The notes beneath the pieces were generated by a model. It saw only the letters and a list, made by a program, of their open reading frames with translations, was not told where the DNA came from and did no database searches. Shown here one piece after another: positions 1 to 62,316 of a stretch of DNA of 62,316 nucleotides. The DNA comes from a virus. The first letter of the stretch is position 1. The number at the start of each line of letters is the position of its first letter. The DNA is taken from positions 1-62,316 of IMG/VR virus record IMGVR_UViG_3300025585_000044. One strand, 5' to 3'. Made by a program: the position numbers and the translations under genes.

Positions 1-84
1 GGCGTCTGTCTGTGTGAAGCCCAGCTGCTCGGCGTCGGCGAGCAGCGTGGCGTAGTCGTGCGAGTTGAAGATGATGTCGGTCAT
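1..84 (-). CDS. Partial copy of the small protein gene downstream of the tail fibre
   Basis: The reading frame starts MTDIIFNSHDYATLLADAEQ at base 84 and runs off the window at base 1. It is identical over this length to the start of the complete 128-residue gene at 61344-61730. Its ATG overlaps the fibre stop codon (TAATG). If the genome is circular, this is the same gene seen twice rather than a second gene. Function unknown; its position directly after the fibre suggests a fibre-associated or virion protein. Confidence 0.7.
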   Translation of the reverse strand, partial: MTDIIFNSHDYATLLADAEQLGFTQTDA

Positions 85-119
85 TAGTAGGTGCTTCCTA
101 CGATTGATTTTGATTTGAG
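1..119. repeat. Left copy of 119-bp direct repeat (matches 61647-61765)
   Basis: Bases 1-119 are identical to 61647-61765; beyond base 119 the two copies diverge. The repeat covers the 5' part of the small gene downstream of the fibre, the TAATG stop-start junction, and the last codons of the fibre gene. It starts exactly at base 1, which suggests that the window edge is an assembly boundary inside a repeat. Confidence 0.95.
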
Positions 120-3100
120 GATAGCGTCGGGGAGGCGCTGGTTGTAGTAGGCAAACGAACGTATATATCCGCAAGCGAGACCGGCTGTGCCTGTAGGCCA
201 ATAACTACCGAGGAACATCTCACTAACTGTAGGTAGGGTTCCGCTTGTATCTGGCTCTACAGTTCCACCATTTGTGACGGCTGCAAAATCATTGGCTTTA
301 TACGCAAACAACGTGCGGTATATAGTTCCGGCGGTATAGCCAGATGACAAGCTATCAAGCGAAGCCTGCGTTACGCCGCCAACAATAACGCCGGAGTTAA
401 TTTTACCGGATGAGTTGTATATTGTGTAATACCGATTATTGCTTGTTCCATCGCTTACGCTCAACATACCGTAATTATACGCTGTTCCTTCTAAAGCCAT
501 CGTGCCGTTTGTAGAGTTCCAGAAAGACGAGAAATTTGAGCCAGAAGCCATTGCGACATCAGCGGCGCGGGTGACAGCGCCGGTCGTCGTGGGGATGTAG
601 CTGGTGGGGAAGGAGCCTGCTTCGAGTTGTGCGCCGAAGAGAGAAATGGTCTCCGTCCCGGCAGCATTGAAAGTTACTTCCCCCGCGCCATTAAACGTGT
701 TTCCTGTCTTAGATGAGGCGATACAGGCTTCCAGATAAACGGTTGTTTGCGATGTCTTACCTGTCAACGAAAGACGGAACCAGCCATTCCCGAGATATTC
801 CTGCTTTGTCCCGGCAATCGTTCCAGACGATGTTCCAACACTCTGCTCCGTGCGTGCTGTAAGCGACGTATCGCCAATATCAAACACAGCCGAGATATAA
901 TGGTTTGCCGAGTTGCCAAAGACATTTAGGTTAACATACCTTGACGTTCCCGCCTTTGCATAAAGAGAATATGTGTAGTCCGTGTTCGCGCTTACCGAAA
1001 TAGCCGCAGTCGAATACAACATATGATAGGCGTTGCCCGCAACAGCCTTAATCGTCTGCGCGCTTCCTGACACAGCGTCAGGGCCAGCTATAGTGCTGTC
1101 TTTTGTTGACTGTCCCGTCGTCCAATTCGCGGACGTAAACGCGCTGAGAGCGATATTCGTCCTGCTCTCCTCAATCAGCATCCCCCTTGGTGTCGCCGGG
1201 GTCACGCTGGGGTCATAGTCGTAGCGCGGCTGATACACGGCGGCGCTGGTCGTTGGGATGTAGGTTGAGGGGGCGGCTTGGTAGGTGACTTGTTCTAGCT
1301 GCGCGTTCCAGACGAGAACGCCGTTTGTTCCGCTTCGGGTGGCTGTCCCTGATCCATTTGCATCTACAGGGGCAAAGTCAAAATATGCAGAAACGCCCGT
1401 AGCGCCGCCTGTTACGGCCACAGACAAACGATACCAACCGCTGCCTACAGATGTTATAGAGCCGACATGCCCTGTAGCCTGAGTTCCAACTACGCCATTC
1501 TGAAGGTCAAACCAAACACACGCGCCATTGGTTGGGCCGTTTGTTCCAAGAGCAAACCATGTCATGCCACTCGCTTTTGCGTATAGTGACAAGATGTATT
1601 TAACGCCAGTTGCATAGGTGTTCGCGACGTAAACTTCTCTGGCCGTTCCAGTGGTCGTCGGATAAACAAGCCAAGCCGTTGACCCCGCATTCGGGTCAGT
1701 CTGACCACTAGTAAGGGTCATGTTGGTATATGTCCAAGCAGCGTTGGAAAACGCATTGCTCTGCAACAACAAATTCGCCGGAGCCCACGTCAGCGTCCCG
1801 GTGCTGTCATGCATCATCCGGTTGCCGGTGGTGCCGCTATTGTCAATCCACGTCGGCGTGGAGATGGTCCCGGCTGCGGCATTGACGTATGCCCGCAAGC
1901 TCGTAACCCAGCCGTATGTCGGCGTGGAGATGGTCAGCGGGCTGGTGGAGGAAGCATTGATGTTAGCGGACCACGAGCCGCCAGTCTGCTCGTCGATGTA
2001 GAAGCTCTCGACAAGCCGATTGGTGTAGCTGGCGAGCGTGAATGTCTCGGCGGCGCGGGCGATGCTGCCAGTTGCGACAGTTGGAATAAAACTTGTGACA
2101 AACGCGCCGTTTTCTACCTGAACACCCCATAGCGAAAAATAATTTGAGCCATTTGCGCCGGAATTTGCGCCAATGTAAAAAGAGGCGTTGGTGGTATTAA
2201 AGGCGACGCGATACCAGCCGTTACCGGCATTTGTTACAGAGACGTATGTATAAACAGAAGGAAATGTTGACGACCCATTCGACAGGTTTACGGTCCAAAC
2301 ATTTCCTGCGCCGTCTTGACCAGTGATTGTGCTTATGCCCGTCCCTGCTTTTGCGTAAAAAGAAACTGTTCTTCCAGAAGAGTATATCGTTCCAGAGGCA
2401 TCAACAATGCCATTCACACTGTTGTTGCTGACCGGGACAATAGCCTGCGCTGTGTTAGTCCCGTCTGGTGCAATTGTTAATAGTGTTGTGTTATTTACGG
2501 TGCAAGAGCCTAGCTTTGTCCACGCAGATGTCTGCGTAAAGTCGCTTGAGTAAGAACGATAATTCGTCCGCGCCCCCTCCACCAGCAGCCCCTTCGGCTG
2601 CAAGGTCGCGGGGTCGTAATCAAAGCGCGGGCCGTAGTAGGCGGCGGTGGTGGTGATGACTTGGTCGCCGGAGCGGGGTGTGGTTTCGTATGTGACTAGC
2701 GACGCCGCAGATTTATAGACAAAAATGCCATTTGTCCCGTCACCCGTTCCAGCTGAAGCGTTTGACAGGCGCGGATATAGGTAGACTGCGCCGCTGTAGA
2801 ATTGAACCCCTATTGAGTTCCATCCAGCGTTCTTAGCGACGACCGTAATCAGCATACGCGCGCCTGATGTCGTCGCGGTTTTAAACGAAACCTGCCACCA
2901 ACCGCTTCCTAAACTTGTTGCAATCGCATCGGTCGCGCCTCCTGCTAGGTTGGATGTAGCGCCTGTCGTGAGGTCAAATGCAATTAGGTCGTTTGCGGAA
3001 CCAGTAATAGCTGTTTGATTAATGGACCCGTTTGTTTGCCCATTTGTAACAACGAGTTTGAACGCGGTTGTGCCGCCTAATGGATCGGCCTGCCCGCCAG

Positions 3101-28276: not shown

Positions 28277-28312
28277 TTATGGGGATTATTCGCCTTTTAT
28301 GGGGATTATTCG
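28277..28312. repeat. 16-bp tandem direct repeat at the methyltransferase 3' end
   Basis: TTATGGGGATTATTCG occurs at 28277-28292 and 28297-28312, spanning the methyltransferase stop codon and the ribosome-site region of the next gene. Probably a slipped-strand duplication. Confidence 0.8.
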
Positions 28313-29289
28313 ATTATCTCCATCACTGCCTCAATCACCCTGGCCGCGAGCGGCGGGACAATCGCGTTACCGTAACCCCGCAGTCGTCCCACTCGGTTGG
28401 GAACCCCATCAACCAGCAGACGAACTCCGGATTTAACGCGCCTCTCTTTGCCGTCGGCTCCCCGTCGCCACTCCACGCCTCGCGACCAAGGAGAGAGTTC
28501 GTCGGCACGTTCGGGCAGTATTGACCGTCCTTCCCGTCCCGCGTCGTCGGCGTCGGCCATGTCTGGACGGCATGCCGAAGAGCAAATTGCAGATGTATGC
28601 CCTGCTTTTTCTTCTCCGCAGCCCTCTCCGTCCATCGCTCTATCGTTTCCGAATTGTTGTGCAGATGATCTGATGATGTCGGCGTCGGCCACGTCGCCGC
28701 TTCCCTCGCATGAATTGGCAGGTGGCTGTTCCCGCCGCCCTTCGTCTTCGTCGTGCGCCCGCCCTCTCCGTCCGAGGCTTTCGGCGTCGGCCAATGCGAC
28801 CCAGTAGAGCCGCTGCCTGATGTGCGGCGCCCCGACGCCCGCTGCGCACAGATCGGCTCCCGCCCCGGCATATCCCACTCCTTCCAGATCAGCGAACACT
28901 CCGGAGAGCCATTCTCGCCCAGCGCGCGACGCAACCTGCTCGCCAATGACGATTGCAGGTTTGCACTCGCGGATAAGCCGGTAAAACTCTGGCCAGAGAT
29001 GCCGCTCGTCGGCTGTTCCCTTGCCGCGCCCGGCGACGCTGAACGGCTGGCAGGGACAGGAGCCGGTCCAAACAGGTCTGTCGTCGGGCCAGCCGGCGAG
29101 CTGGAGGGCCCTGCTCCACCCGGCGACGCCTGCGAAGAAGTGACACTGGTCAAACCCCCTGAGGTCTTCGGGCCGCACGTCAACGATTGATCGCTCATCT
29201 ACCTCTCCATCCGGTATGCGCCCCGCCTTGATCAGATTGCGTAGCCATTGCGCGGGGTATGGTTCTATTTCGTTGTAATATACAGGCAT
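28306..29289 (-). CDS. C5-cytosine DNA methyltransferase
   Basis: 327 residues, start at MPVYYNEIEPYPAQW (ATG 29289, AGAGAG upstream). Motifs: I FFAGVAGWSRALQLAG; IV GSCPCQPFSVAGRG with the catalytic Cys in PCQ; VI GEQV instead of the usual ENV; VIII RQRLYWVALAD; X GYGNAIVPPLAARV. The variable target-recognition region contains DVADAD/MADADDAGREGR repeats. It would methylate cytosines in phage DNA, probably against restriction. The Gln in motif VI should be noted when judging activity. A second frame is coding within the same DNA. Confidence 0.88.
   Translation of the reverse strand: MPVYYNEIEPYPAQWLRNLIKAGRIPDGEVDERSIVDVRPEDLRGFDQCHFFAGVAGWSRALQLAGWPDDRPVWTGSCPCQPFSVAGRGKGTADERHLWPEFYRLIRECKPAIVIGEQVASRAGREWLSGVFADLEGVGYAGAGADLCAAGVGAPHIRQRLYWVALADAESLGRRGRAHDEDEGRREQPPANSCEGSGDVADADIIRSSAQQFGNDRAMDGEGCGEEKAGHTSAICSSACRPDMADADDAGREGRSILPERADELSPWSRGVEWRRGADGKERRVKSGVRLLVDGVPNRVGRLRGYGNAIVPPLAARVIEAVMEIIE
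28335..29198 (-). CDS. Gene nested out of frame in the methyltransferase (WPTPT-repeat protein)
   Basis: 287 residues in the +1 frame relative to the methyltransferase, wholly inside it. An independent GGAGAGG ribosome site lies three bases before ATG 29198. The protein has features of a known phage family usually found beside C5 methyltransferases: a Ser-rich N-terminus with W-K-E-W, RRTSGSGSTGSHWPTPKASDGEGG, WPTPTSSDH and WPTPTTRDGKDG repeats, and the closing LNPEFVCWLMGFPTEW. The DNA that gives ADAD in one frame gives PTPT in the other. Function unknown; it may assist or modify methyltransferase recognition. Confidence 0.65.
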   Translation of the reverse strand: MSDQSLTCGPKTSGGLTSVTSSQASPGGAGPSSSPAGPTTDLFGPAPVPASRSASPGAAREQPTSGISGQSFTGLSASANLQSSLASRLRRALGENGSPECSLIWKEWDMPGREPICAQRASGRRTSGSGSTGSHWPTPKASDGEGGRTTKTKGGGNSHLPIHAREAATWPTPTSSDHLHNNSETIERWTERAAEKKKQGIHLQFALRHAVQTWPTPTTRDGKDGQYCPNVPTNSLLGREAWSGDGEPTAKRGALNPEFVCWLMGFPTEWDDCGVTVTRLSRRSRPG

Positions 29290-29302
29290 AAGATTGCTCT
29301 CT

Positions 29303-29719
29303 CTAATTGCACAACGGAACGCCAAGCCTGTTTAGATCAAGGCCCGAAAGCTTTGTCCAGCGCGTCGTCGCTAAAGCCCCACGATTGTCAAGATAATCCA
29401 CAACAGCAGGATAGCGTAAGCCATAGGCTCGGCGTAAAACAGCATTCCCTTCATTGCTAATTTCCTTAGTGACCGGATGATGCGCCCCATGAAACCACCA
29501 CTGGCTGTTTTGTTTGACGCATGTCGCATGAGCGAGGCTCATTGTTCCGGCGGAATGATAACTCCGACCCTGAGCAGGGCGCGGCTGGTCGAGCTTCAGC
29601 GCCTGCCAACAATTCCTCGGATCTCCGCCATGCGCCGCCGTGCATCCATAATTAGAGCCGGGCAATTGAACGGAACAAGCTGACAAAGCGATAGCGCACA
29701 TCAATGCGGAATATCTCAT
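29303..29719 (-). CDS. Putative lipoprotein
   Basis: 138 residues from MRYSALMCAIALSACSVQLPG (ATG 29719, AGGAAGG upstream). LSAC is a lipobox at residues 12-15, so the mature protein should be membrane-anchored at its Cys. The rest contains further Cys residues and a basic C-terminus. A phage lipoprotein made early could act in surface exclusion, but this is inference. Overlaps the 29652-29825 gene by 68 bases. Confidence 0.65.
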   Translation of the reverse strand: MRYSALMCAIALSACSVQLPGSNYGCTAAHGGDPRNCWQALKLDQPRPAQGRSYHSAGTMSLAHATCVKQNSQWWFHGAHHPVTKEISNEGNAVLRRAYGLRYPAVVDYLDNRGALATTRWTKLSGLDLNRLGVPLCN

Positions 29720-34215: not shown

Positions 34216-34451
34216 GATTGCAAATCCGGGATTGCGCGTAAGTGTTTGATTTTGTTGGTCCTTTACTGGGAAAACAAATTACTGTGATTAGATTTCGTAA
34301 CTTGTTGAATCTAAAGGCCGTCGCATTCTTAAAATTTAAGATTGCAGTTGCAGAATTTTAAGAATGCGACGGCCTTTAGAAACAAGGAGTTACGAAGATT
34401 TAAGATTGATTTAAGAATGCGGCGGCCTTTGCTTTCAAAAGCTTACGCAAT
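34216..34451. other. Intergenic region containing a long hairpin
   Basis: About 235 AT-richer bases with no gene that I can support, lying between the primase-helicase stop and the leftward promoter. It contains the long inverted repeat described separately and a third, partial copy of its right arm (about 34413-34433). A candidate origin or transcription boundary. Confidence 0.5.
34291..34398. repeat. Long inverted repeat (~46-base arms)
   Basis: The inner 26 bases are a perfect match (34311-34336 against 34354-34379, 17-base loop). The similarity continues outward imperfectly as TTTCGTAAC...TTGTT..TCTAAAGG on the left and CCTTTAGA.ACAA..GTTACGAA on the right. A third partial right arm, TTAAGAATGCGGCGGCCTTT, follows at about 34413. 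AT-rich in the middle with GGCCGTCGCATTC in the arms. Confidence 0.9.
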
Positions 34452-37489: not shown

Positions 37490-38000
37490 TGATTGCGTTG
37501 CATTGCGGAGCGTAGCGACGCGTTGCGCAGCGTCGCGCCGATAAATTGCCAAAAGAAACGTTGCGTTGCGCGGCGAGACGTAGCGTAGCGATGCGCTGCG
37601 ATGCGTCGCGGAGCGGGGCGAGGGTAAATTGCCAAAAGAAACGTTGCGTAGAGGTGCGGCGCGATGTGCTGCGATGCGCTGCGCAGGTAAGCAGACAAAA
37701 GAAACGTTGCGGTGCGTTGCGGAGCGGAGCGGAGCGACGTGTTGCGCGGCGTGGATAAACTGCCAAAAGAAACGTTGCGTTGCGTCGCGGTGCGCGGCGA
37801 TGCACTGCAATGCGGTGCGACGCGCAGCGGTGCGCGGCGGTGCGACGCGTAGCGGCGCGCGGCGCCGATAAATCGCCAAAAGAAACGTTGCGTTGCGTTG
37901 CGTTGCGCAGCGTAGCGCCGCGCAGCGAGGATAAATCGCCAAAAGAAACGTTGCGGAGCGTGGCGCCGCGCTGCGCCGCGATGAGATGCGCTGCGGCGTG
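37490..38000. repeat. NNGCG pentamer array with six conserved units
   Basis: About 500 bases built of five-base words NNGCG in constant phase (TTGCG, ATGCG, GAGCG, CAGCG, and so on). Six times the words are interrupted by a conserved ~25-base unit, (G)ATAAA(T/C)(T/C)GCC followed by AAAAGAAACGTTGCG, at 37540, 37623, 37686, 37754, 37867 and 37930. Intervals are 83, 63, 68, 113 and 63 bases. Unit 3 is the most diverged (GGTAAGCAGAC before AAAAGAAACG). It fills the whole gap between the resolvase start and the gene at 38070-38564 and encodes nothing that I can support. Confidence 0.95.
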
Positions 38001-38021
38001 GAGCCCGATCAGACAATAAGT

Positions 38022-38061
38022 CAGCGCGCCCATGAAACGGCATTTCAATACAGGCGCGCTG
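38022..38061. repeat. Nine-base inverted repeat beside the pentamer array
   Basis: CAGCGCGCC (38022-38030) and GGCGCGCTG (38053-38061), 22-base loop, directly after the stop of the 38070 gene. On the plus strand it is followed by CAATTTTGTTATT, so a weak rightward terminator is possible. Confidence 0.6.
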
Positions 38062-38069
38062 CAATTTTG

Positions 38070-38564
38070 TTATTCCTTCGAGAAAGCCTTCAGCGTTTCG
38101 CTAATTGGCAGCTCGCCCGATCTTCCTGCCACGGCGCGCGATGCTTTTTCAAGCTGGCCCTTGCGCGCCATGTAGGCAATGGCGCCAAAGAAGCTGATTT
38201 TAATCGTGTGGGCAATCTGAGCCGCCGGAGACAGCCTGCTGTAATCTTCAACGCAGGCCATTTTCTGCGCGGATCTTTTTGCATGCCGCCGGCTTTTTTC
38301 AACGAACTTGTCGCTGGCGGATGTTGCAAGCTCAGTGTCGTCAAGGCGTTTCAGTCCGACACTGCGAATTGCTTCGAACACCATGTGATTGTGCTTCACA
38401 AGAAATCGCCTGGCTGTAGCCAGATTGAAGGTCTGCCCGGAAACAGGTTTGCCGCAGGCCGCCGAAAGCTCCCCATATGTTACAACATCACCAATCTGCA
38501 TCCGCTTGAGGCGGTCGATCACTATGCGCGTCTCCGGCGCCATTTCCTTGATGTAGTCAGCCAT
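38070..38564 (-). CDS. Hypothetical protein of the recombination region
   Basis: 164 residues. The N-terminus TRIVIDRLKRMQIGDVVTYGELSAACGKPVSGQTFNLATARRFLVKHNHMVFEAIRSVGLKRL looks like a winged-helix domain. The C-terminal part is helical and basic. AAGGAG lies before ATG 38564. Flanked on both sides by pentamer tracts, which makes it a candidate for binding them; that is inference. Confidence 0.65.
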   Translation of the reverse strand: MADYIKEMAPETRIVIDRLKRMQIGDVVTYGELSAACGKPVSGQTFNLATARRFLVKHNHMVFEAIRSVGLKRLDDTELATSASDKFVEKSRRHAKRSAQKMACVEDYSRLSPAAQIAHTIKISFFGAIAYMARKGQLEKASRAVAGRSGELPISETLKAFSKE

Positions 38565-38582
38565 TTTGTTCTCCTTTTAAAT

Positions 38583-38640
38583 TTGCGTTGCGTTGCGAGT
38601 CGATGCGTCGCGATGCAGAGTGATGCGTTGCGCTGCGAAG
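38583..38640. repeat. Second NNGCG pentamer tract
   Basis: About 11 consecutive five-base words, mostly NNGCG (TTGCG three times, ATGCG, TCGCG, CTGCG), fill the gap between the gene at 38647 and the start at 38564. The long conserved unit is absent here. Confidence 0.9.
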
Positions 38641-38646
38641 ATCATC

Positions 38647-39213
38647 CTAGATGTTCTGATACGTGTATTTTATTGCGCGGAAGCGCCCATTCAGCCCCCC
38701 GTTTTCCGGGCGGAACCGCCCAAGGCCAATGAACCTCCCTGCCTCATCAAAGTGACGCTCAAATACCTTGGGCGTCACGGTGTCATCCAATATGGCGAAA
38801 ACAACAGTCCCCTTCCATGTCGGCACCTGAGGAAACGTGCGATTGACGCGCTTCCCGGATCCACGAACGCCGTCGCTATTGGCGCTGATGGTAATGGAGG
38901 GAACGGTGGCCTTGAACCAGCCAATGGGGACGTCGCTCTCGCAGATCACGCCTCCCTTGAAGTGTTTAGTGTAGGTGGCCTTCCCCTTGCCGGGGATTTG
39001 GTCGCCAAGGCGCTTGGCGACGGAGTCGAGGGCCTGTTTGAAGCCCATTGCGGGGATAACGATCTCCCCCGCGTCGTTTGTGCTGCACTTCTCCCGCCAT
39101 GTTCGCTCTTCGTAGTCCTCATGGCTTTCCTTCTCTAAATACGGCGTGCCGTGTTTGAGAGATTGCGAGTAGGGGGACGTGCCTTCGAACTCGATGGTTA
39201 CAAGCTTTGGCAT
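38647..39213 (-). CDS. Conserved phage protein, recombination region
   Basis: 188 residues, MPKLVTIEFEGTSPYSQSLK...; GAGG before ATG 39213. A conserved-looking end, FDEAGRFIGLGRFRPENGGLNGRF, contains a G-x-GR-(F/Y)-RP motif that I have seen in phage proteins near exonuclease and annealing genes. Beta-rich; possibly ssDNA- or RNA-associated. Exact role unknown. Confidence 0.65.
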   Translation of the reverse strand: MPKLVTIEFEGTSPYSQSLKHGTPYLEKESHEDYEERTWREKCSTNDAGEIVIPAMGFKQALDSVAKRLGDQIPGKGKATYTKHFKGGVICESDVPIGWFKATVPSITISANSDGVRGSGKRVNRTFPQVPTWKGTVVFAILDDTVTPKVFERHFDEAGRFIGLGRFRPENGGLNGRFRAIKYTYQNI

Positions 39214-41731: not shown

Positions 41732-41952
41732 TGGAAAGGGCCGAGGATGAAGTCTTGCGCCTGCATGGCGTTATAAAAATCCTTGAGGATAGGCTCGACA
41801 CAGAGAGGCGCGCATACATTGATGAGGTTGCGCGCCTCAACAATCAGCTGCATCGAATGAATACAACTATGATGCGCATCAGGCATAGCGCCTCTGATTT
41901 TTCTGATGTCATGTCTATTATAAGAGAGCACGAAACATACTGGGGGGCATAA
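41731..41952 (+). CDS. Small coiled-coil protein
   Basis: 73 residues from MERAEDEVLRLHGVIKILED (ATG 41731, TAATG overlap). A single long helix with heptads (RLHGVIKILEDRLDTERRAYIDEVARLNNQL). Joined to the GcrA-like gene by another TAATG overlap. Confidence 0.65.
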   Translation: MERAEDEVLRLHGVIKILEDRLDTERRAYIDEVARLNNQLHRMNTTMMRIRHSASDFSDVMSIIREHETYWGA

Positions 41953-42449
41953 TGGACGAAAGCCTTAAGCAGGGAATAATCAGGCTTTGGAACGAGGGAA
42001 AGACTGGCGCCGAAATAGCGGAAATTTTTGGTGTAACGAGAAATTCCGTTCTTGGTTTTGTTCATAGAATGCGAAAAAAGGGTTACGATGTTCACCAAAA
42101 AGCGGAAGCGAGACCGGCAAAGGCGCGGCCCCCAAAGCCAAGCGCCGCTCCTGCTAAAATCCTTCCCGATTTGGAGGAAGATATGATCGAGGAATGCATT
42201 GGCGACGAAGGTTCTGTTGCCTCCGTTTTTGATCAATACTTCTCCACTCCGCCATCTGGCAAGACGCTGATGTTTCTTAATATGGCATCATGCAGATTTA
42301 TTGTTTCGCCAGATGGCGCGGAAACAGCAATATACTGCGGGGAAAAAATAGCTCGACGCTCATACTGCAAGGATCATGCAGATCTATGCTACACCCCAAT
42401 ACGTCCGGCAAAAGATAGGTTTAGTATCAATATGCGCTTTCCGCAATAA
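41952..42449 (+). CDS. GcrA-like cell-cycle regulator
   Basis: 165 residues. N-terminal HTH: IIRLWNEGKTGAEIAEIFGVTRNSVLGFVHRM, matching the GcrA 'LW-x-EG-x-S-x-x-x-IA-x-x-LG-x-(V/I)-TRN-(A/S)-V-(I/L)-G-(K/F)-(V/A)-HR' pattern. Linker rich in Pro/Ala/Lys (PAKARPPKPSAAPAK). C-terminal module with SCRFIVSP...YCGEK...SYCKDH, as in GcrA's Cys/His end that binds sigma70. In alphaproteobacteria GcrA activates sigma70 promoters, often at methylated GANTC sites. Here it may redirect host RNA polymerase to phage promoters. Confidence 0.85.
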   Translation: MDESLKQGIIRLWNEGKTGAEIAEIFGVTRNSVLGFVHRMRKKGYDVHQKAEARPAKARPPKPSAAPAKILPDLEEDMIEECIGDEGSVASVFDQYFSTPPSGKTLMFLNMASCRFIVSPDGAETAIYCGEKIARRSYCKDHADLCYTPIRPAKDRFSINMRFPQ

Positions 42450-56717: not shown

Positions 56718-59380
56718 CAGGTCACATTTCCTGTAACAACAAAGGTCGGGGTCGCGCCGCCTACGTCGCAAAGCAGCGTCGCCACGCCATATTGAGCCAA
56801 TGTTCTATTGCCCGTAGTAGCAGAACCAGCAAGTCGTAACGTCACACTTGCTCCTGCTGTTATCGTCTGGGCGGCGTTCGAATTGTTATAAATTGTAACA
56901 ACGTCGCCTGCGCTAAACACCGAAGCATTTACAGTTACTCCGCCAGTGGTGATGCTGATGTATTTTCCGTTGTCTCCCGCAACCAGGACATACGCAGACG
57001 TCTGACTGTTCTGCGGGATGTTCCTGAACCCGACCGTCATTGTTTCGGCGGGGAACGTCACGGTGTAATTACTCGCCCCGGCGTTCGCGGAGGCAAAAGA
57101 TGTGTAGCCGGTAGACGAGCCGGCCAGTCTCGGCGTCGTCAACGTCGGGCTTGTCGCAAATACCAACGAGCCGGAACCCGTCTCATCCGTCATCGCCGCC
57201 GCAAGGTTGGCGCTTGATGGCGTCCCAAGCCATGTTGCTACGCCGGTTCCAAAGCTTGTAATGCCCGTTCCGCCGGCGGCGACAGGTAACGTCCCGGCCG
57301 TCAGCGCCGAAGCTGAAGTCGAATAAATGGCGTTGTTTGCAGCCGTAAAGCCCGTCAGGTTCGTGCCGCCGTTGGCCGTCGGCAAAGTCCCTGTCACGCC
57401 GGTTGTCAGTGGCAATCCTGTATTGGAAGCAAGGCTTCCGGTCGTTGTCTGTAACGTCCCGCTTGTTGGAAGCGTAAGGGCCGTCGTATTTGTGGCTGTC
57501 AGGGTTACCGAAAAGGCTCCGACTGTGGCGAGTGTGGAGCCATCTCCCAAGGTAAGCGTAGCATTTGTTGCCGGGGCGGTAATGGCAACCTTGTTTATGC
57601 TGGTTGCGGAGGCGACGCCAATCGTCGGCGTCGTCAGGGTTGGACTGGTGGCGAGAACAACGCTGCCGGACCCCGTAGAAGCATTTCCCAGCGCCGTAAC
57701 GGTTCCGCTTGTCGGAAGTGTAAGCGCCGTTGCTCCTGTCGATGTAAAAGTAATGGAGTTTGCGCCGCTTGTGGCAAGCGTAGACCCATCCGCCAAAGTT
57801 AACGTGGCGCCCGTGGCCGGAGCCGTAATCGTAACCTTGTTGACGCTGGTAGCTGCTGCGACACCCAGCGTTGGCGTTGTTAGCGTCGGGCTTGTTGCAA
57901 GAACAATGCTACCAGAGCCGGTCGACGTATTGCCAAGAACCGTGACCGTTCCGCCTGTCGCGGGAAATGTAAATGTTTGGCTGTCTGCAGCAGCCGCCAG
58001 CGTCATTGTGTTGCTGAGCGTAAGGGTTTTACTCGCGGCCGGCGCAAATGTTGCGTAGGTAATAAATCCGCCACTGGCATTAACGGCATTTGCCGCAGCC
58101 GTTGCGACGCCGGTTCCGGCCACAACTGTAGCAAGCGCCCCAAAAGACGAGCCGCTTGTTTTTGTAACAGTAATGACGCCCGTTGATGCAACAATTGTTG
58201 CGTCCCCAGACATTGTAAAGCCGCCAAATGCTCCGGCATTATTGTATTGAAGCTCACCATTTGAGCCGCCCGGTGATCCAGACCCGCCTCCGCCAGATTG
58301 CGCAACCCAGCTTAATGTTCCGGAGCCATTGGTCTGAAGAACATAACCGTTGGTTCCGTCGCTATTAGGAAACGTCAGTGTTTTGTTAAAAGTAATTGTT
58401 GTCCCATCAGCAACTGTTAACGTGGCGCTCGTTGCCGGGGCTGTAATTGTAACCTTATTTATGCTTGTAGCCGTGGCGACGCCAAGCGTTGGCGTCACCA
58501 GCGTCGGGCTTGTCGCAAGGACAATGCTGCCAGAGCCGGTTGATGCGCTTCCAAGAGCCGTAACCGTTCCACTTGTCGGAAACGTCAGATTTGTGGCCCC
58601 GGTAAACGTAAATGCCGTTGTGAATGCGCCAATTGTTTGAAACGTGCTATTTGATGCAAGGGAAAGTGTAGAAGTAAGAGCCGGCTGCGTAATCGCGACA
58701 TTGTTAACCGTCAATGCTGTTGCCGCGCCCAACGCTGGCGTTGTCAGACTTGGTGAAGTCGAAAGGACAATGTCCCCAGAGCCGGTTACGGTGTTCCCGA
58801 GGGCCGTGACAGTCCCGGTTGACGGAAGCGTAAGATTTGTGGTTCCGGTAGCCGTTAAGGTGACGGCAAAAGCCCCAAGGGTCGTAAAGGAATGCGCCGT
58901 GCTAAAGGATCCGCCGGTTGAGAAATTGCCGCCCGTCGAGAATGTGCCCGACGTGCTGAAGGCGCCGCCTGTAGAAAAAGTAGAGCCGCTTGATAGCGAA
59001 AGCGTAGCAGTCGAAGCCGGAGATGTTATTGAAACATTGTTGAAAGTCGTGCTGGCCGTGTTGCCCACAACTTGCAGTCGCGAAGACGGCGAGGCCGTTC
59101 CAATACCAAGTCGGCTATTGGCGTTGTCCCAAAATAAATTTGCATTGTTTTGGTTGTAGATCCCGGAGGCTCCGGCAAAAACAATTGAGCCTGAGGTAAA
59201 TATAACTCCCGTCCCCGTTCCACCAAGAGATGGCTGAATGACGCCAGAGGCGGCATTGGCGAGACTTGCTATCTGGGCGGCTGTGACGCGAACGCTTGAT
59301 CCGGATTGAACAGCCTCAAGCTGCTCCTGGCCAGTAAGCGCAATGGCCGCGGGAAGGTTGGGTATCTGAACGACACTCAT
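56717..59380 (-). CDS. Repetitive tail fibre
   Basis: 887 residues. N-terminus MSVVQIPNLPAAIALTGQEQLEAVQSGSSVRVTAAQIASL is a fibre adaptor. SLGGTGTGVIFTSGSIVFAG...NANSRLGIGTASP follows. About five imperfect repeats of ~80 residues then contain TVTALGN-x-(S/V)TGSG(S/D)IVLATSP(T/S)L-x-TP-x-(L/I)GVA-x-ATS-(I/V)NKV and TLTLADGSTLAT, with a GGTNLTGF/GGTGITSFG break. This gives a long thin trimer. Ends coupled to the Gly-rich adhesin. The DNA repeats make copy number prone to change. Confidence 0.88.
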   Translation of the reverse strand: MSVVQIPNLPAAIALTGQEQLEAVQSGSSVRVTAAQIASLANAASGVIQPSLGGTGTGVIFTSGSIVFAGASGIYNQNNANLFWDNANSRLGIGTASPSSRLQVVGNTASTTFNNVSITSPASTATLSLSSGSTFSTGGAFSTSGTFSTGGNFSTGGSFSTAHSFTTLGAFAVTLTATGTTNLTLPSTGTVTALGNTVTGSGDIVLSTSPSLTTPALGAATALTVNNVAITQPALTSTLSLASNSTFQTIGAFTTAFTFTGATNLTFPTSGTVTALGSASTGSGSIVLATSPTLVTPTLGVATATSINKVTITAPATSATLTVADGTTITFNKTLTFPNSDGTNGYVLQTNGSGTLSWVAQSGGGGSGSPGGSNGELQYNNAGAFGGFTMSGDATIVASTGVITVTKTSGSSFGALATVVAGTGVATAAANAVNASGGFITYATFAPAASKTLTLSNTMTLAAAADSQTFTFPATGGTVTVLGNTSTGSGSIVLATSPTLTTPTLGVAAATSVNKVTITAPATGATLTLADGSTLATSGANSITFTSTGATALTLPTSGTVTALGNASTGSGSVVLATSPTLTTPTIGVASATSINKVAITAPATNATLTLGDGSTLATVGAFSVTLTATNTTALTLPTSGTLQTTTGSLASNTGLPLTTGVTGTLPTANGGTNLTGFTAANNAIYSTSASALTAGTLPVAAGGTGITSFGTGVATWLGTPSSANLAAAMTDETGSGSLVFATSPTLTTPRLAGSSTGYTSFASANAGASNYTVTFPAETMTVGFRNIPQNSQTSAYVLVAGDNGKYISITTGGVTVNASVFSAGDVVTIYNNSNAAQTITAGASVTLRLAGSATTGNRTLAQYGVATLLCDVGGATPTFVVTGNVT

Positions 59381-59868
59381 GTCAGCGGTCCTGTCTTTGG
59401 AACAGTCGTGTTATCATACGGTAATCCGGGATTATTGTTGCCCGGCGCGTTCGGGTCGGTGCCCGGCTCGGTATTCTCGCCGCCCGGCGGCTCGCCGGTC
59501 TGCTGCGTGACGCGGGTTTCTGAGCCTTGCGTGACGCGCGTGTCGCCGCCAATGACAGGGATGCCGGTTTTCGGGTCGACTGTATTGCCCTGCGTTGTGC
59601 GGGTATTTTGCTCGGCCGTGACGTAATCCTGCGTGCGCGGGTTCTGAATGGGCGTAGGATCCGGAGGCACTACAATGGCGCGAAGCTGGCTCTGCGGAAC
59701 GTCATTGCATGTGTCGCAGACAAGAATGCGCTTGTTAATCAGCGACGCGCCAGCCCAATCATACTGCCAGGATAAATTAACGTGATTGTATAAAAAACCA
59801 CAGCGGTCGCAAATTGCAAACGCGCGAGGATTTCTGGTGCTGACGCGTGCGCGGCCGTGGGGTCTCAT
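59377..59868 (-). CDS. Zinc-ribbon phage protein of the tail operon
   Basis: 163 residues. AICDRCGFLYNHVNL and RILVCDTCNDVP give a C-x2-C...C-x2-C zinc ribbon (residues ~19-55). A disordered Pro/Thr/Gly tail follows, with TRVTQGSETRVTQQTGE repeats. Often found between adaptor and fibre genes in podoviruses; the ribbon may bind the virion or nucleic acid. ATGA overlap with the upstream adaptor. Confidence 0.75.
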   Translation of the reverse strand: MRPHGRARVSTRNPRAFAICDRCGFLYNHVNLSWQYDWAGASLINKRILVCDTCNDVPQSQLRAIVVPPDPTPIQNPRTQDYVTAEQNTRTTQGNTVDPKTGIPVIGGDTRVTQGSETRVTQQTGEPPGGENTEPGTDPNAPGNNNPGLPYDNTTVPKTGPLT

Positions 59869-60545
59869 CGGAAGTAACCCGAAATCTGCGGCGAAATATA
59901 CTGATTTGCCGTTTCCACGTTTTGCGCGGCCGCGATCTGGTAGGCCTCATCCGCCATTGGCTTCAGGGCGACAACCTTGTCCGGGGACCATATTATAGCG
60001 AGGCGCTGCGCAAGGCCGTAAGCAAAGGCCTCCAGCCAGATCGGTGGCACGTCGACCTCTTGCGTACCATTCATGTTGGCGTCTTGAATGCGGCTAACTT
60101 TGTAATACTTCAGGCTTGTCTGCGTGCCGTCTGGCACGGGCCACAGCGTAACTGTCGGAGACAGCTGGCGGTCGAACCAAAAGGTCGTCGGGAACCCGGA
60201 CTGGGCCTTGTTCGGGTAGGAGGCGTATTCTGTCCTGCTAATTGGCAGGATAATGCGGTCAATCGCCGGCGTCCCGTATTCAATATAAGCGTCCAACATG
60301 ACGACCGTATTGGAATTAACACTATAGGACGCAGTGCCGGCAACGAGCGGCACCGTAACGAGCTCAACCTGCCAAAGGTTAACCCCGCGGTTGCTCCAGT
60401 TCGCCAGCATCATGTTGGTCGCCGTGCGGGCGACATCCATATGCTCCTGGAGCAATGCGGTGGGCCGAACGCCTATCAGCTGATAAGCGTAAAGGGTTAG
60501 CTCACCAAGCGACGGATTATAGTTGTATGTGCCGCTGGTGCTCAT
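59865..60545 (-). CDS. Head-tail connector / tail accessory (P22 gp4-like)
   Basis: 226 residues. GELTLYAYQLIGVRPTALLQEHMDVARTATNMMLANWSNRGVNLWQVELVTVPLV, YPNKAQSGFPTTFWFDRQLSPTVTLWPVPDGTQTSLKYYKV and PPIWLEAFAYGLAQRLAIIW...VALKPMADEAYQIAAAQNVE are diagnostic of the connector family placed between portal and tail. A second connector-like gene lies at 52980-53756, so one may bind the portal and the other the nozzle. Confidence 0.82.
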   Translation of the reverse strand: MSTSGTYNYNPSLGELTLYAYQLIGVRPTALLQEHMDVARTATNMMLANWSNRGVNLWQVELVTVPLVAGTASYSVNSNTVVMLDAYIEYGTPAIDRIILPISRTEYASYPNKAQSGFPTTFWFDRQLSPTVTLWPVPDGTQTSLKYYKVSRIQDANMNGTQEVDVPPIWLEAFAYGLAQRLAIIWSPDKVVALKPMADEAYQIAAAQNVETANQYISPQISGYFR

Positions 60546-60602
60546 TTGATGTCCTCAGATCGACGCCGCAGGCATTATAGCCCACGGCGCCGTGATTGTC
60601 AT

Positions 60603-61088
60603 TTACTGGACCGCTCCCGGCTCAACCGGGATCGGTGGGATCGCATCCTGCGCGTCTTTTGCAGCGGTCGCCTTTTCCTGATTGATCGTGTTGGCGAGGA
60701 TGCCCTGCAACAGCCCGTTCGCCACGGCGTCGAACACCTCCTGCCCTGTGGGCGGGCGAACAGAAGCCGGGACGCCCGGAACCTCTGGAACAGCCGGGAC
60801 GTAAGGCTGATACGGCACCGCAGGCACCTCCGGCGAGCCGGGGTCAATCATGTTGCCCTGATCGTCGTAGGTCGGCGGAACAGCGGGGATAGCATCCTGC
60901 GCCTGAACCTCGGGGATTTCCGGCGTGCCCGGAATGCCCGGAACCTCGGGAACTGGAACGCCATTCGGGAAGTAAAGCTGCGCATATGCGACCGAGATGC
61001 GGTCGATGTCAGCGTCCGCAATCAGGACGCGGCTCTCAAGCGGAGCCGGGTCCACGTCTCGTTTGGATGCGATAGCAAAATAGCCCAT
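60603..61088 (-). CDS. Proline-rich virion-associated protein
   Basis: 161 residues. N-terminal globular part (MGYFAIASKRDVDPAPLESRVLIADADIDRISVAYAQLYF), then VPEVPGIPGTPEIPEVQ, VPAVPYQPYVPAVPEVPGVP repeats, and a helical end. Pro-Val/Pro-Glu linkers of this kind are extended spacers. Unassigned; likely structural. Confidence 0.65.
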   Translation of the reverse strand: MGYFAIASKRDVDPAPLESRVLIADADIDRISVAYAQLYFPNGVPVPEVPGIPGTPEIPEVQAQDAIPAVPPTYDDQGNMIDPGSPEVPAVPYQPYVPAVPEVPGVPASVRPPTGQEVFDAVANGLLQGILANTINQEKATAAKDAQDAIPPIPVEPGAVQ

Positions 61089-61270
61089 TATGCGTGTCCT
61101 TCACGGTTTTCGACTGTCACCGGCTCGTTCGCCTTGGCGACGGCCGCCTCCAGTTTCTCCAAAATCGCCAGCGCGGGCTTCGCGCCCTGCAAGCCAGATG
61201 CTTTCACCGCCACGTCGAGAAGCTGACCCAGCGTGTTAAGCTCATCCTGCGTAAAGTTGACCGATACCAT
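61088..61270 (-). CDS. Small helical protein
   Basis: 60 residues, MVSVNFTQDELNTLGQLLDVAVKASGLQGAKPALAILEKLEAAV...; two amphipathic helices. TAATG overlap with the next gene. Small helical partners like this are common beside fibre genes; role unknown. Confidence 0.65.
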   Translation of the reverse strand: MVSVNFTQDELNTLGQLLDVAVKASGLQGAKPALAILEKLEAAVAKANEPVTVENREGHA

Positions 61271-61343
61271 TTTCTCTCTCCAAAGGTGCTTACCGGGTTG
61301 GAGACTGCGCAGGCCCGGTAAGCGTCCTCCTGCGCAGTATTCG

Positions 61344-61730
61344 TCAGGCGATCATGCCGATCTGCCCAACCCAATCAGGCGCAACCGTCACGCCGTCATC
61401 CGTCCAGCCGCCCAATTCGGCGCTATAGACATACTGCGTGATGGACGGGTCGAAGGGCGGCACGCCGCTGGTGTCGCCGTTGAGCCGGAGCCTGCCCCAG
61501 TAGCCCTCACGCGGAACCGGCGGGGGAACCGGGTCGTCCGGGTTCGGCGGCGGCGTCACCGGCTCGTAGACCGTGCCGACGATGTTGAGAAACCAGCCGC
61601 CGGTTCCGCCCAGCGAGCCGTTCGTGACGATGGTGACGTTGCCCTCGGCGTCTGTCTGTGTGAAGCCCAGCTGCTCGGCGTCGGCGAGCAGCGTGGCGTA
61701 GTCGTGCGAGTTGAAGATGATGTCGGTCAT
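61344..61730 (-). CDS. Small protein downstream of the main tail fibre
   Basis: 128 residues from MTDIIFNSHDYATLLADAEQ (ATG 61730, overlapping the fibre stop as TAATG). After an N-terminal alpha/beta part (GFTQTDAEGNVTIVTNGSLGGTGGWFLNIVGTVYEPV) there is a Pro-rich linker (TPPPNPDDPVPPPVP) and a domain with YWGRLRLNGDTSGVPPFDPSITQYVYSAELGGWTDDG. The first 28 codons are repeated at 1-84. Possibly a fibre chaperone or cap; not recognised. Confidence 0.75.
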   Translation of the reverse strand: MTDIIFNSHDYATLLADAEQLGFTQTDAEGNVTIVTNGSLGGTGGWFLNIVGTVYEPVTPPPNPDDPVPPPVPREGYWGRLRLNGDTSGVPPFDPSITQYVYSAELGGWTDDGVTVAPDWVGQIGMIA

Positions 61731-61765
61731 TAGTAGGTGCTTCCTACGATTGATTTTGATTTGAG
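61647..61765. repeat. Right copy of the 119-bp direct repeat (matches 1-119)
   Basis: Identical to bases 1-119. Spans the start of the small gene and the last 11 codons of the partial fibre. Confidence 0.95.
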
Positions 61766-62316
61766 TGTCGTGTCGGATAGGCGCTGATTGTAAAGGGCTA
61801 TTGAGCCAACCCAACCATCAAAGGTCGTCGTGGTGCCGTAACCGCCTAGCGTGACCGTCGCGCCCGTGCTGAGATTTACGGCATCCGATACAAGCGTGCC
61901 GTTGTTGGCGACTATGGAACGTCCGGCTGCACTCCATCCGATAGCGGACCTGACCGCGCCGCCCGTAAACGTGCCCGAACCGCCAATCGTTGCGTTAATT
62001 CCCGTAGTTCCATCAGTTGAGGACACTACGGTATTACTGCTGTTGGAATACAGCAGGCGGCGGGTCGTGGCAGATGACAGCAAGTCTCTTGCGGCCGCAG
62101 TAGCATTTTGCCAGAGAGATGTCTGAACAATAGCTGTTCCAGTATTTGCGCCAGCCGTCGTCAGCGCAGCCCCGCTCAGCTTCACAACATCCGCGACGCG
62201 CGTGACGCTGGCAGTTGTCGTGGGGATGTAGCTGGTGGGGAAGGAGCCTGCTTCGAGTTGTGCGCCGAAGAGAGAAATGGTCTCCGTCCCGGCAGCATTG
62301 AAAGTTACTTCCCCCG
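61730..62316 (-). CDS. C-terminal end of a tail fibre, alternative tip (5' truncated at window edge)
   Basis: The frame is open to the last base of the window, so the start is missing. It begins within EVTFNAAGTETISLFGAQLE and SYIPTTTASVTRVADVV, matching the fibre at 84-3350, then diverges into a different LamG-like tip (SGAALTTAGANTGTAIVQTSLWQNATAAARDLLSSATT..., TFDGWVGSIALYNQRLSDTT) and ends with the same LKSKSIVGSTY. Most simply, a second allele of the same fibre gene found in the population; alternatively a real second fibre gene. Confidence 0.85.
   Translation of the reverse strand, partial: GEVTFNAAGTETISLFGAQLEAGSFPTSYIPTTTASVTRVADVVKLSGAALTTAGANTGTAIVQTSLWQNATAAARDLLSSATTRRLLYSNSSNTVVSSTDGTTGINATIGGSGTFTGGAVRSAIGWSAAGRSIVANNGTLVSDAVNLSTGATVTLGGYGTTTTFDGWVGSIALYNQRLSDTTLKSKSIVGSTY
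62217..62316. repeat. Right flank of the alternative fibre tip (matches 586-685)
   Basis: The final 100 bases are identical to 586-685. The window therefore ends inside a repeat that is already present near its beginning. Confidence 0.95.

Follow-up and report, generated by a model that had tools for sequence, protein, structure and literature searches.

The stretch of DNA analysed here, referred to below as the window, is one virus record taken at its full length of 62,316 nt, with fibre-gene sequence at both of its ends (Table 1). Close to its start lies a complete tail-fibre gene, read on the minus strand, and at its end lies the 3′ part of a second copy, in direct, not inverted, orientation; the fibre frame is open through both tip copies, giving 1088 aa in the first case and 194 aa (61730..62314(-)) in the second. 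Residues 520-686 of the fibre match the head-spike fibre Rcc01080 of RcGTA, the Rhodobacter gene transfer agent (PDB 6tb9), with an E-value of 1.2e-18, and the two proteins share this domain, but the window fibre is longer than Rcc01080, being a multi-domain chain with a predicted lectin tip. The linker that precedes the tip recurs within the same gene, at residues 697 and 918. Directly after the fibre stop codon, with a TAATG overlap, a small gene of 128 codons follows, referred to here as the partner gene.

Table 1. Positions of the features of the window and of comparable loci in other phages
Feature	Position	Strand	Remarks
IMGVR_UViG_3300025585_000044 (the window)	1 to 62,316		virus record of 62,316 nt, classed linear by IMG/VR
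Tail-fibre gene, 1088 aa	84..3350	-	open frame; PHROG 5939 'tail protein', 2e-99; tip allele A at 3′ end
Second fibre-gene copy, 3′ end	61730..62316	-	runs open into the window edge
Tip allele A, 466 nt	120..585	-	class-1 LamG-like core, class-2 C-terminal tail; GC 49.4%
Tip allele B, 451 nt	61766..62216	-	class 2 throughout; GC 57.9%
Partner gene, 128 aa	61344..61730	-	directly after the fibre stop, TAATG overlap
Partner gene, first 28 codons, repeated	1..84	-	at the window start
Flank on partner-gene side, copy 1	1..119	.	fibre-gene end and partner-gene start; identical to 61647-61765
Flank on partner-gene side, copy 2	61647..61765	.	identical to 1-119
Flank on fibre-body side, copy 1	586..685	.	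linker AQLEAGSFPTSYIPTT; base 586 also terminates contigs G001 and G002
Flank on fibre-body side, copy 2	62217..62316	.	identical to 586-685; at the window end
Overlapping ends of G011 (loci L117 and L118)	1-1074 (L117) and record 37965-39110 (L118)		wrapped circle, two alleles of an internal fibre domain
Swapped tip domains of a third phage	L019 6289-6752 versus L020 6289-6782

The overlap of the two ends consists of two patches, 119 nt on the partner-gene side and 100 nt on the fibre-body side, each of which is identical to its counterpart by string comparison, with BLAST E-values of 1e-63 and 5e-53, respectively, which exclude a chance origin. Identity stops immediately on the inner sides of both matches, and the core segments enclosed by them (the two tips), when aligned, have 13-20 identities per 50 columns, which is the background level, against 50 of 50 in the flanks. 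The two fibre-tip proteins are 42% identical over 199 aa, with the identity mostly at the two ends. An earlier sequence-only reading of this DNA had described exact end identities around a diverged core, on which string comparison and alignment now agree, and had noted that the small gene beside the fibre is continued exactly, in agreement with the repetition of its first 28 codons at the window start.

An overlap by itself is no proof of a circle, and for this reason the gene order was sought in relatives. One of them, G003 (IMGVR_UViG_3300016476_000949, 61,994 nt), has most of its gene order in common with the window; it contains in one contig the fibre gene followed by a homologue of window 61088-61351, and begins with homologues of window 60603-61100 and 59865-60554, a gene order by which this contig crosses the join of the window and is itself nearly one full turn. 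In the other, MW202675 (61,219 bp, deposited as circular), the capsid gene is followed by homologues of the window genes at 60.5 kb and 59.4 kb, and this module order also crosses the join. Genes from the two ends of the window are, in both relatives, neighbours, and the closed length of the window, 61.63-61.65 kb, agrees with the 61,994 and 61,219 of these genomes. The overlap, together with the arrangement of genes over the join in two related genomes of matching length, supports the circle of about 61.6 kb that had been proposed from the window alone, and the window would accordingly be read as a circularly mapping genome. When 24.8 kb of the window was compared by megablast with deposited phages, no match was obtained. 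A separate candidate for a pair of allelic genomes, MW202613.1 (L135) and MW202748.1 (L136), was discarded, as the two are the same 42,977-bp circular sequence deposited twice, rotated and reversed, with zero differences.

Variation at the tip is also apparent from two near-identical contigs, G001 (3300025732_000089) and G002 (3300025889_000604), which are 99.99% identical to the window over 41.4 kb and 99.96% identical over 30.5 kb, respectively, and both of which stop precisely at base 586, the first conserved base past the tip. Since an assembly ends where at least two sequences join one, the corresponding data sets contain at least two tips, or else a repeat; the window itself ends 100 nt past this fork, a distance that would fit the word length of an assembly graph. 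The window presents a near-identical backbone with a bounded divergent segment at the fibre C-terminus, and because a core at background level sits in a highly uniform backbone, the tip core has been exchanged rather than diverged in place. The two tip alleles and the hotspot of variation at the fibre tip, with diverged cores between conserved flanks, that the sequence-only reading had put forward are both supported, the fork at 586 being found in two other contigs. The differences between these contigs and the window cluster in the fibre body: all five in G001 lie inside the fibre gene, at 1055-1166, and nine of the 11 in G002 lie in the same gene, in one 25-nt cluster at 2595-2619. From this concentration it follows that the fibre gene also undergoes replacements on a smaller scale than the tip swap. 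Neither tip was found in near-identical form in another contig searched, and exact searches of IMG/VR with 61736-61765 and 61307-61338 gave no match, so that no contig of the window population covering the partner-gene side was found.

Taken at its most probable, the record represents one circularly mapping phage genome of ~61.6 kb whose fibre-tip alleles coexist, and in which recombination with other phages exchanges the tip as an entire domain. The record would read ~0.67 kb beyond its start, with the second pass taking the other tip allele of the sampled population. A genome holding both tips, either as tandem fibre-end cassettes or with one copy active and the other silent, the contig ends then lying in the repeat, is quite unlikely: a within-genome repeat could likewise end contigs at base 586, but the window already closes at 61.6 kb, the closed or nearly closed relatives (61,219 and 61,994) are of the same size with a single fibre locus at the corresponding place, and neither a serine or tyrosine recombinase nor a third copy of either tip was found in the window. 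As to linkage, the record ties tip A to the left backbone by 119 nt only and tip B to the right backbone by 100 nt only, and within these lengths the data support coexisting tip alleles, which the population of the window phage would carry. Ties of this length, about one assembly word, could also arise if tip B (or A) came from a different co-occurring phage that the assembler entered through an identical patch of about 100 nt, and other phages with tips of the class of tip B (class 2, defined below) are present in similar samples; nevertheless, the flanks of tips A and B show 100% identity on either side, whereas the known class-2 relatives reach only about 82-94% in those patches, and other contigs of the window phage fork at the same base, which leaves a foreign source for one tip unlikely. 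Coexisting alleles of one circular genome are, therefore, the reading followed here.

The origin of tip A was approached by comparing tips taken after the linker QLE...SYIP from all fetched loci, which were split into two classes depending on the presence of the 128-aa gene downstream, a division that makes no use of the tip sequence itself. Five tips have this gene (class 2), and class 1, without it, comprises 48 contigs in which the sequence extends at least 450 nt downstream. In profile scores, with a class-2 profile built on five sequences, the core of tip A is assigned to class 1 (87.8 versus 14.2 bits for class 2) and its tail, the last 25 residues, to class 2 (36.3 versus 8.9 bits for class 1), the best class-1 tail on the class-2 profile scoring 17.0; in tip B, both the core (121.1 versus 7.6 bits) and the tail (29.6 versus 8.6 bits) are assigned to class 2. 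Leave-one-out scores were consistent throughout, for the five class-2 members and twelve class-1 members. Because its core and tail score for opposite classes, tip A combines a class-1 core with a frame of class 2, and the partner gene next to it is likewise a class-2 one. It is, in other words, a chimera, with the core of the widespread partnerless class and the tail and neighbour gene of the rarer one, so that parts of one gene (core and tail) come from different lineages. This chimeric nature and the class membership of the neighbour gene are additions to what had been noticed before. The GC content of tip A, at the 8th percentile, is lower than those of tip B (Table 1) and of the genome (56.8%), which is suggestive only. 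The designation of tip B as the ancestral allele was considered and is not secure, as the tail of tip A (LPDAILK) is nearer to the class-2 consensus than that of tip B (LSDTTLK).

Although the tip sequence gave no match in Pfam, modelling tip A with AlphaFold (pLDDT 86.8, pTM 0.82) gave a structure that matches in Foldseek the LamG domains of agrin and neurexin, CBM40 sialic-acid-binding domains, and galectins, with a cyanopodophage tailspike lower among the matches. The fold predicted for tip A is that of a concanavalin/LamG lectin, a β-sandwich, in line with the LamG-like tip predicted from the sequence. The profiles of class 1 and class 2 align over their full length with 99.8% probability, a score to which the conserved linker contributes. 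The natural reading is that the fibre would be an adhesin that binds carbohydrates and whose lectin tip can be exchanged, in which conserved linkers would join carbohydrate-binding-like domains and the lectin-like (concanavalin/LamG) tip would come last. The position of the tip and its predicted fold suggest that it binds the receptor; the fibre tip probably contacts the host, and tip exchange would be expected to change host specificity.

With respect to the mechanism, homologous recombination through the conserved flanks appears to be the best explanation of the tip exchange. The linker DNA is about 82-94% identical over 80-140 nt between unrelated phages, the exact protein motif of the linker is present in 48 IMG/VR stretches, and the gene products of the window include a RuvC-like resolvase, a PD-(D/E)XK nuclease, and a UvrD-like helicase. 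Recombination with other phages would replace entire tip domains, with one junction in the conserved linker before the tip and the second in the conserved end of the fibre and the start of the 128-aa partner gene, and tip A itself may be the result of such an exchange, a class-2 frame holding a class-1 core. Diversity generators confine variation to a C-terminal ligand-binding domain, and the restriction of the variation in the window to such a domain is typical of them; a retroelement, invertase, or shufflon as the source of the tip alleles is, nonetheless, extremely improbable. Searches of the window for the RVT_1 reverse transcriptase, the serine resolvase (Resolvase), and the tyrosine integrase (Phage_integrase) domains were all negative, with control genomes positive, and the absence of RVT_1 confirms the earlier view that a diversity-generating retroelement is unsupported. 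In addition, the window contains no template repeat of the tip, and no adenine-directed changes were found between tips A and B, whose differences hit all bases and include gaps. Internal repeats of ~80% identity were observed in two other regions of the window, at 37494-38004, within the gene of the RuvC-like protein, which has a repetitive N-terminus, and at 57567-58850, within that of an 887-aa virion protein, where contig G004 ends.

Parallel cases were identified in two other phages. G011 (3300044533_000249, 39,110 nt), which IMG/VR classes as linear, has ends that overlap likewise, with two fibre alleles: positions 1-235 and 37965-38199 are 96% identical, positions 735-1074 and 38770-39110 are 93% identical, and the divergent segment is an internal fibre domain between the linkers GLLIEGTRTN and PTTGSTARAAETF. 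In two contigs of a third phage, L019 and L020, the flanks are 99.9% and 99.7% identical, and the fibre C-terminal domains are unrelated. The tip swap in the window is, in view of both, one instance of a recurring pattern. A more general proposal, which is offered tentatively and is doubtful at present, is that the linker motif AQLEAGSFPTSYIPTT and matching inter-domain linkers constitute a standing recombination joint in many unrelated phages, which may shuffle whole fibre domains and two-class lectin tips, with or without the 128-aa partner gene, in natural populations, and that complete genomes of such phages may for this reason be recorded as linear.

The partner gene lies downstream of every class-2 tip found (5/5), and accompanies these tips across differing neighbourhoods, next to portal and scaffold genes in L056-L058 and to other genes in L059 (names read from the frames). 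Sequence searches with the 128-aa protein against PDB, Pfam, and PHROGs gave no match, and its fold has no match in PDB at E<=0.001; no match to known fibre chaperones was detected by either sequence or fold. Its constant company with class-2 tips makes a putative role in fibre assembly or capping possible.

Exchange of receptor-binding tips is already known in kind. In metaviromic islands, near-identical phage backbones vary at host-recognition genes, chiefly at the fibre C-terminus (PMC3909814); the window resembles them in its near-identical backbone and variable C-terminal part of the fibre, but those islands rest on read recruitment of fosmid phages, whereas in the window a single record shows two alleles whose boundaries are exact, and a chimeric tip has been dissected. 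In Alteromonas phages A5 and V22, modules of tail fibre plus chaperone are common to unrelated phages (PMC10579305), and, likewise, the fibre gene here travels with a small partner gene among unrelated phages; the window partner, with 128 aa, is shorter than A5 gp9 (240 aa) and V22 gp27 (195 aa), and no chaperone match was detected for it. For Pectobacterium tailocins, exchange of fibre loci by homologous recombination has been described (PMC13195805). There, as in the window, variable fibre loci are swapped through conserved surroundings, the homologous recombination in the window being an inferred one; the tailocin loci are chromosomal and DNA inversion acts on them too, whereas the window shows no recombinase. 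To these systems the window adds boundaries that are exact, a tip that is chimeric, and alleles that mask circular genomes.

Regarding the host, close relatives of the fibre were not found in bacterial genomes, and thus no host was deduced from prophages. The window encodes a GcrA-like cell-cycle regulator at 41952-42449 (+) (PF07750, 1.7e-15), a family known from alphaproteobacteria, and its terminase matches those of Paracoccus and Roseobacter phages; these two features and the RcGTA-like fibre suggest an alphaproteobacterial host. Among the other features of the genome are a C-5 cytosine DNA methyltransferase at 28306-29325 (-) (PF00145; PHROG 363, 8e-81) and, at 34288-34403, an imperfect palindrome of 116 nt with 81% self-complementarity. 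The palindrome lies beside the end of the primase-helicase gene and is possibly a terminator or an origin.

In summary, the window provides a clean natural case of exchange of a tip that, by inference, binds the receptor, with exact boundaries, a chimeric intermediate, and parallels in two other phages. It also bears on how phage genomes are catalogued, since a contig with ends that overlap on either side of a polymorphic fibre segment fails the end-repeat test of circularity, and complete phage genomes are thus filed as linear fragments, as is the case for both the window and G011.
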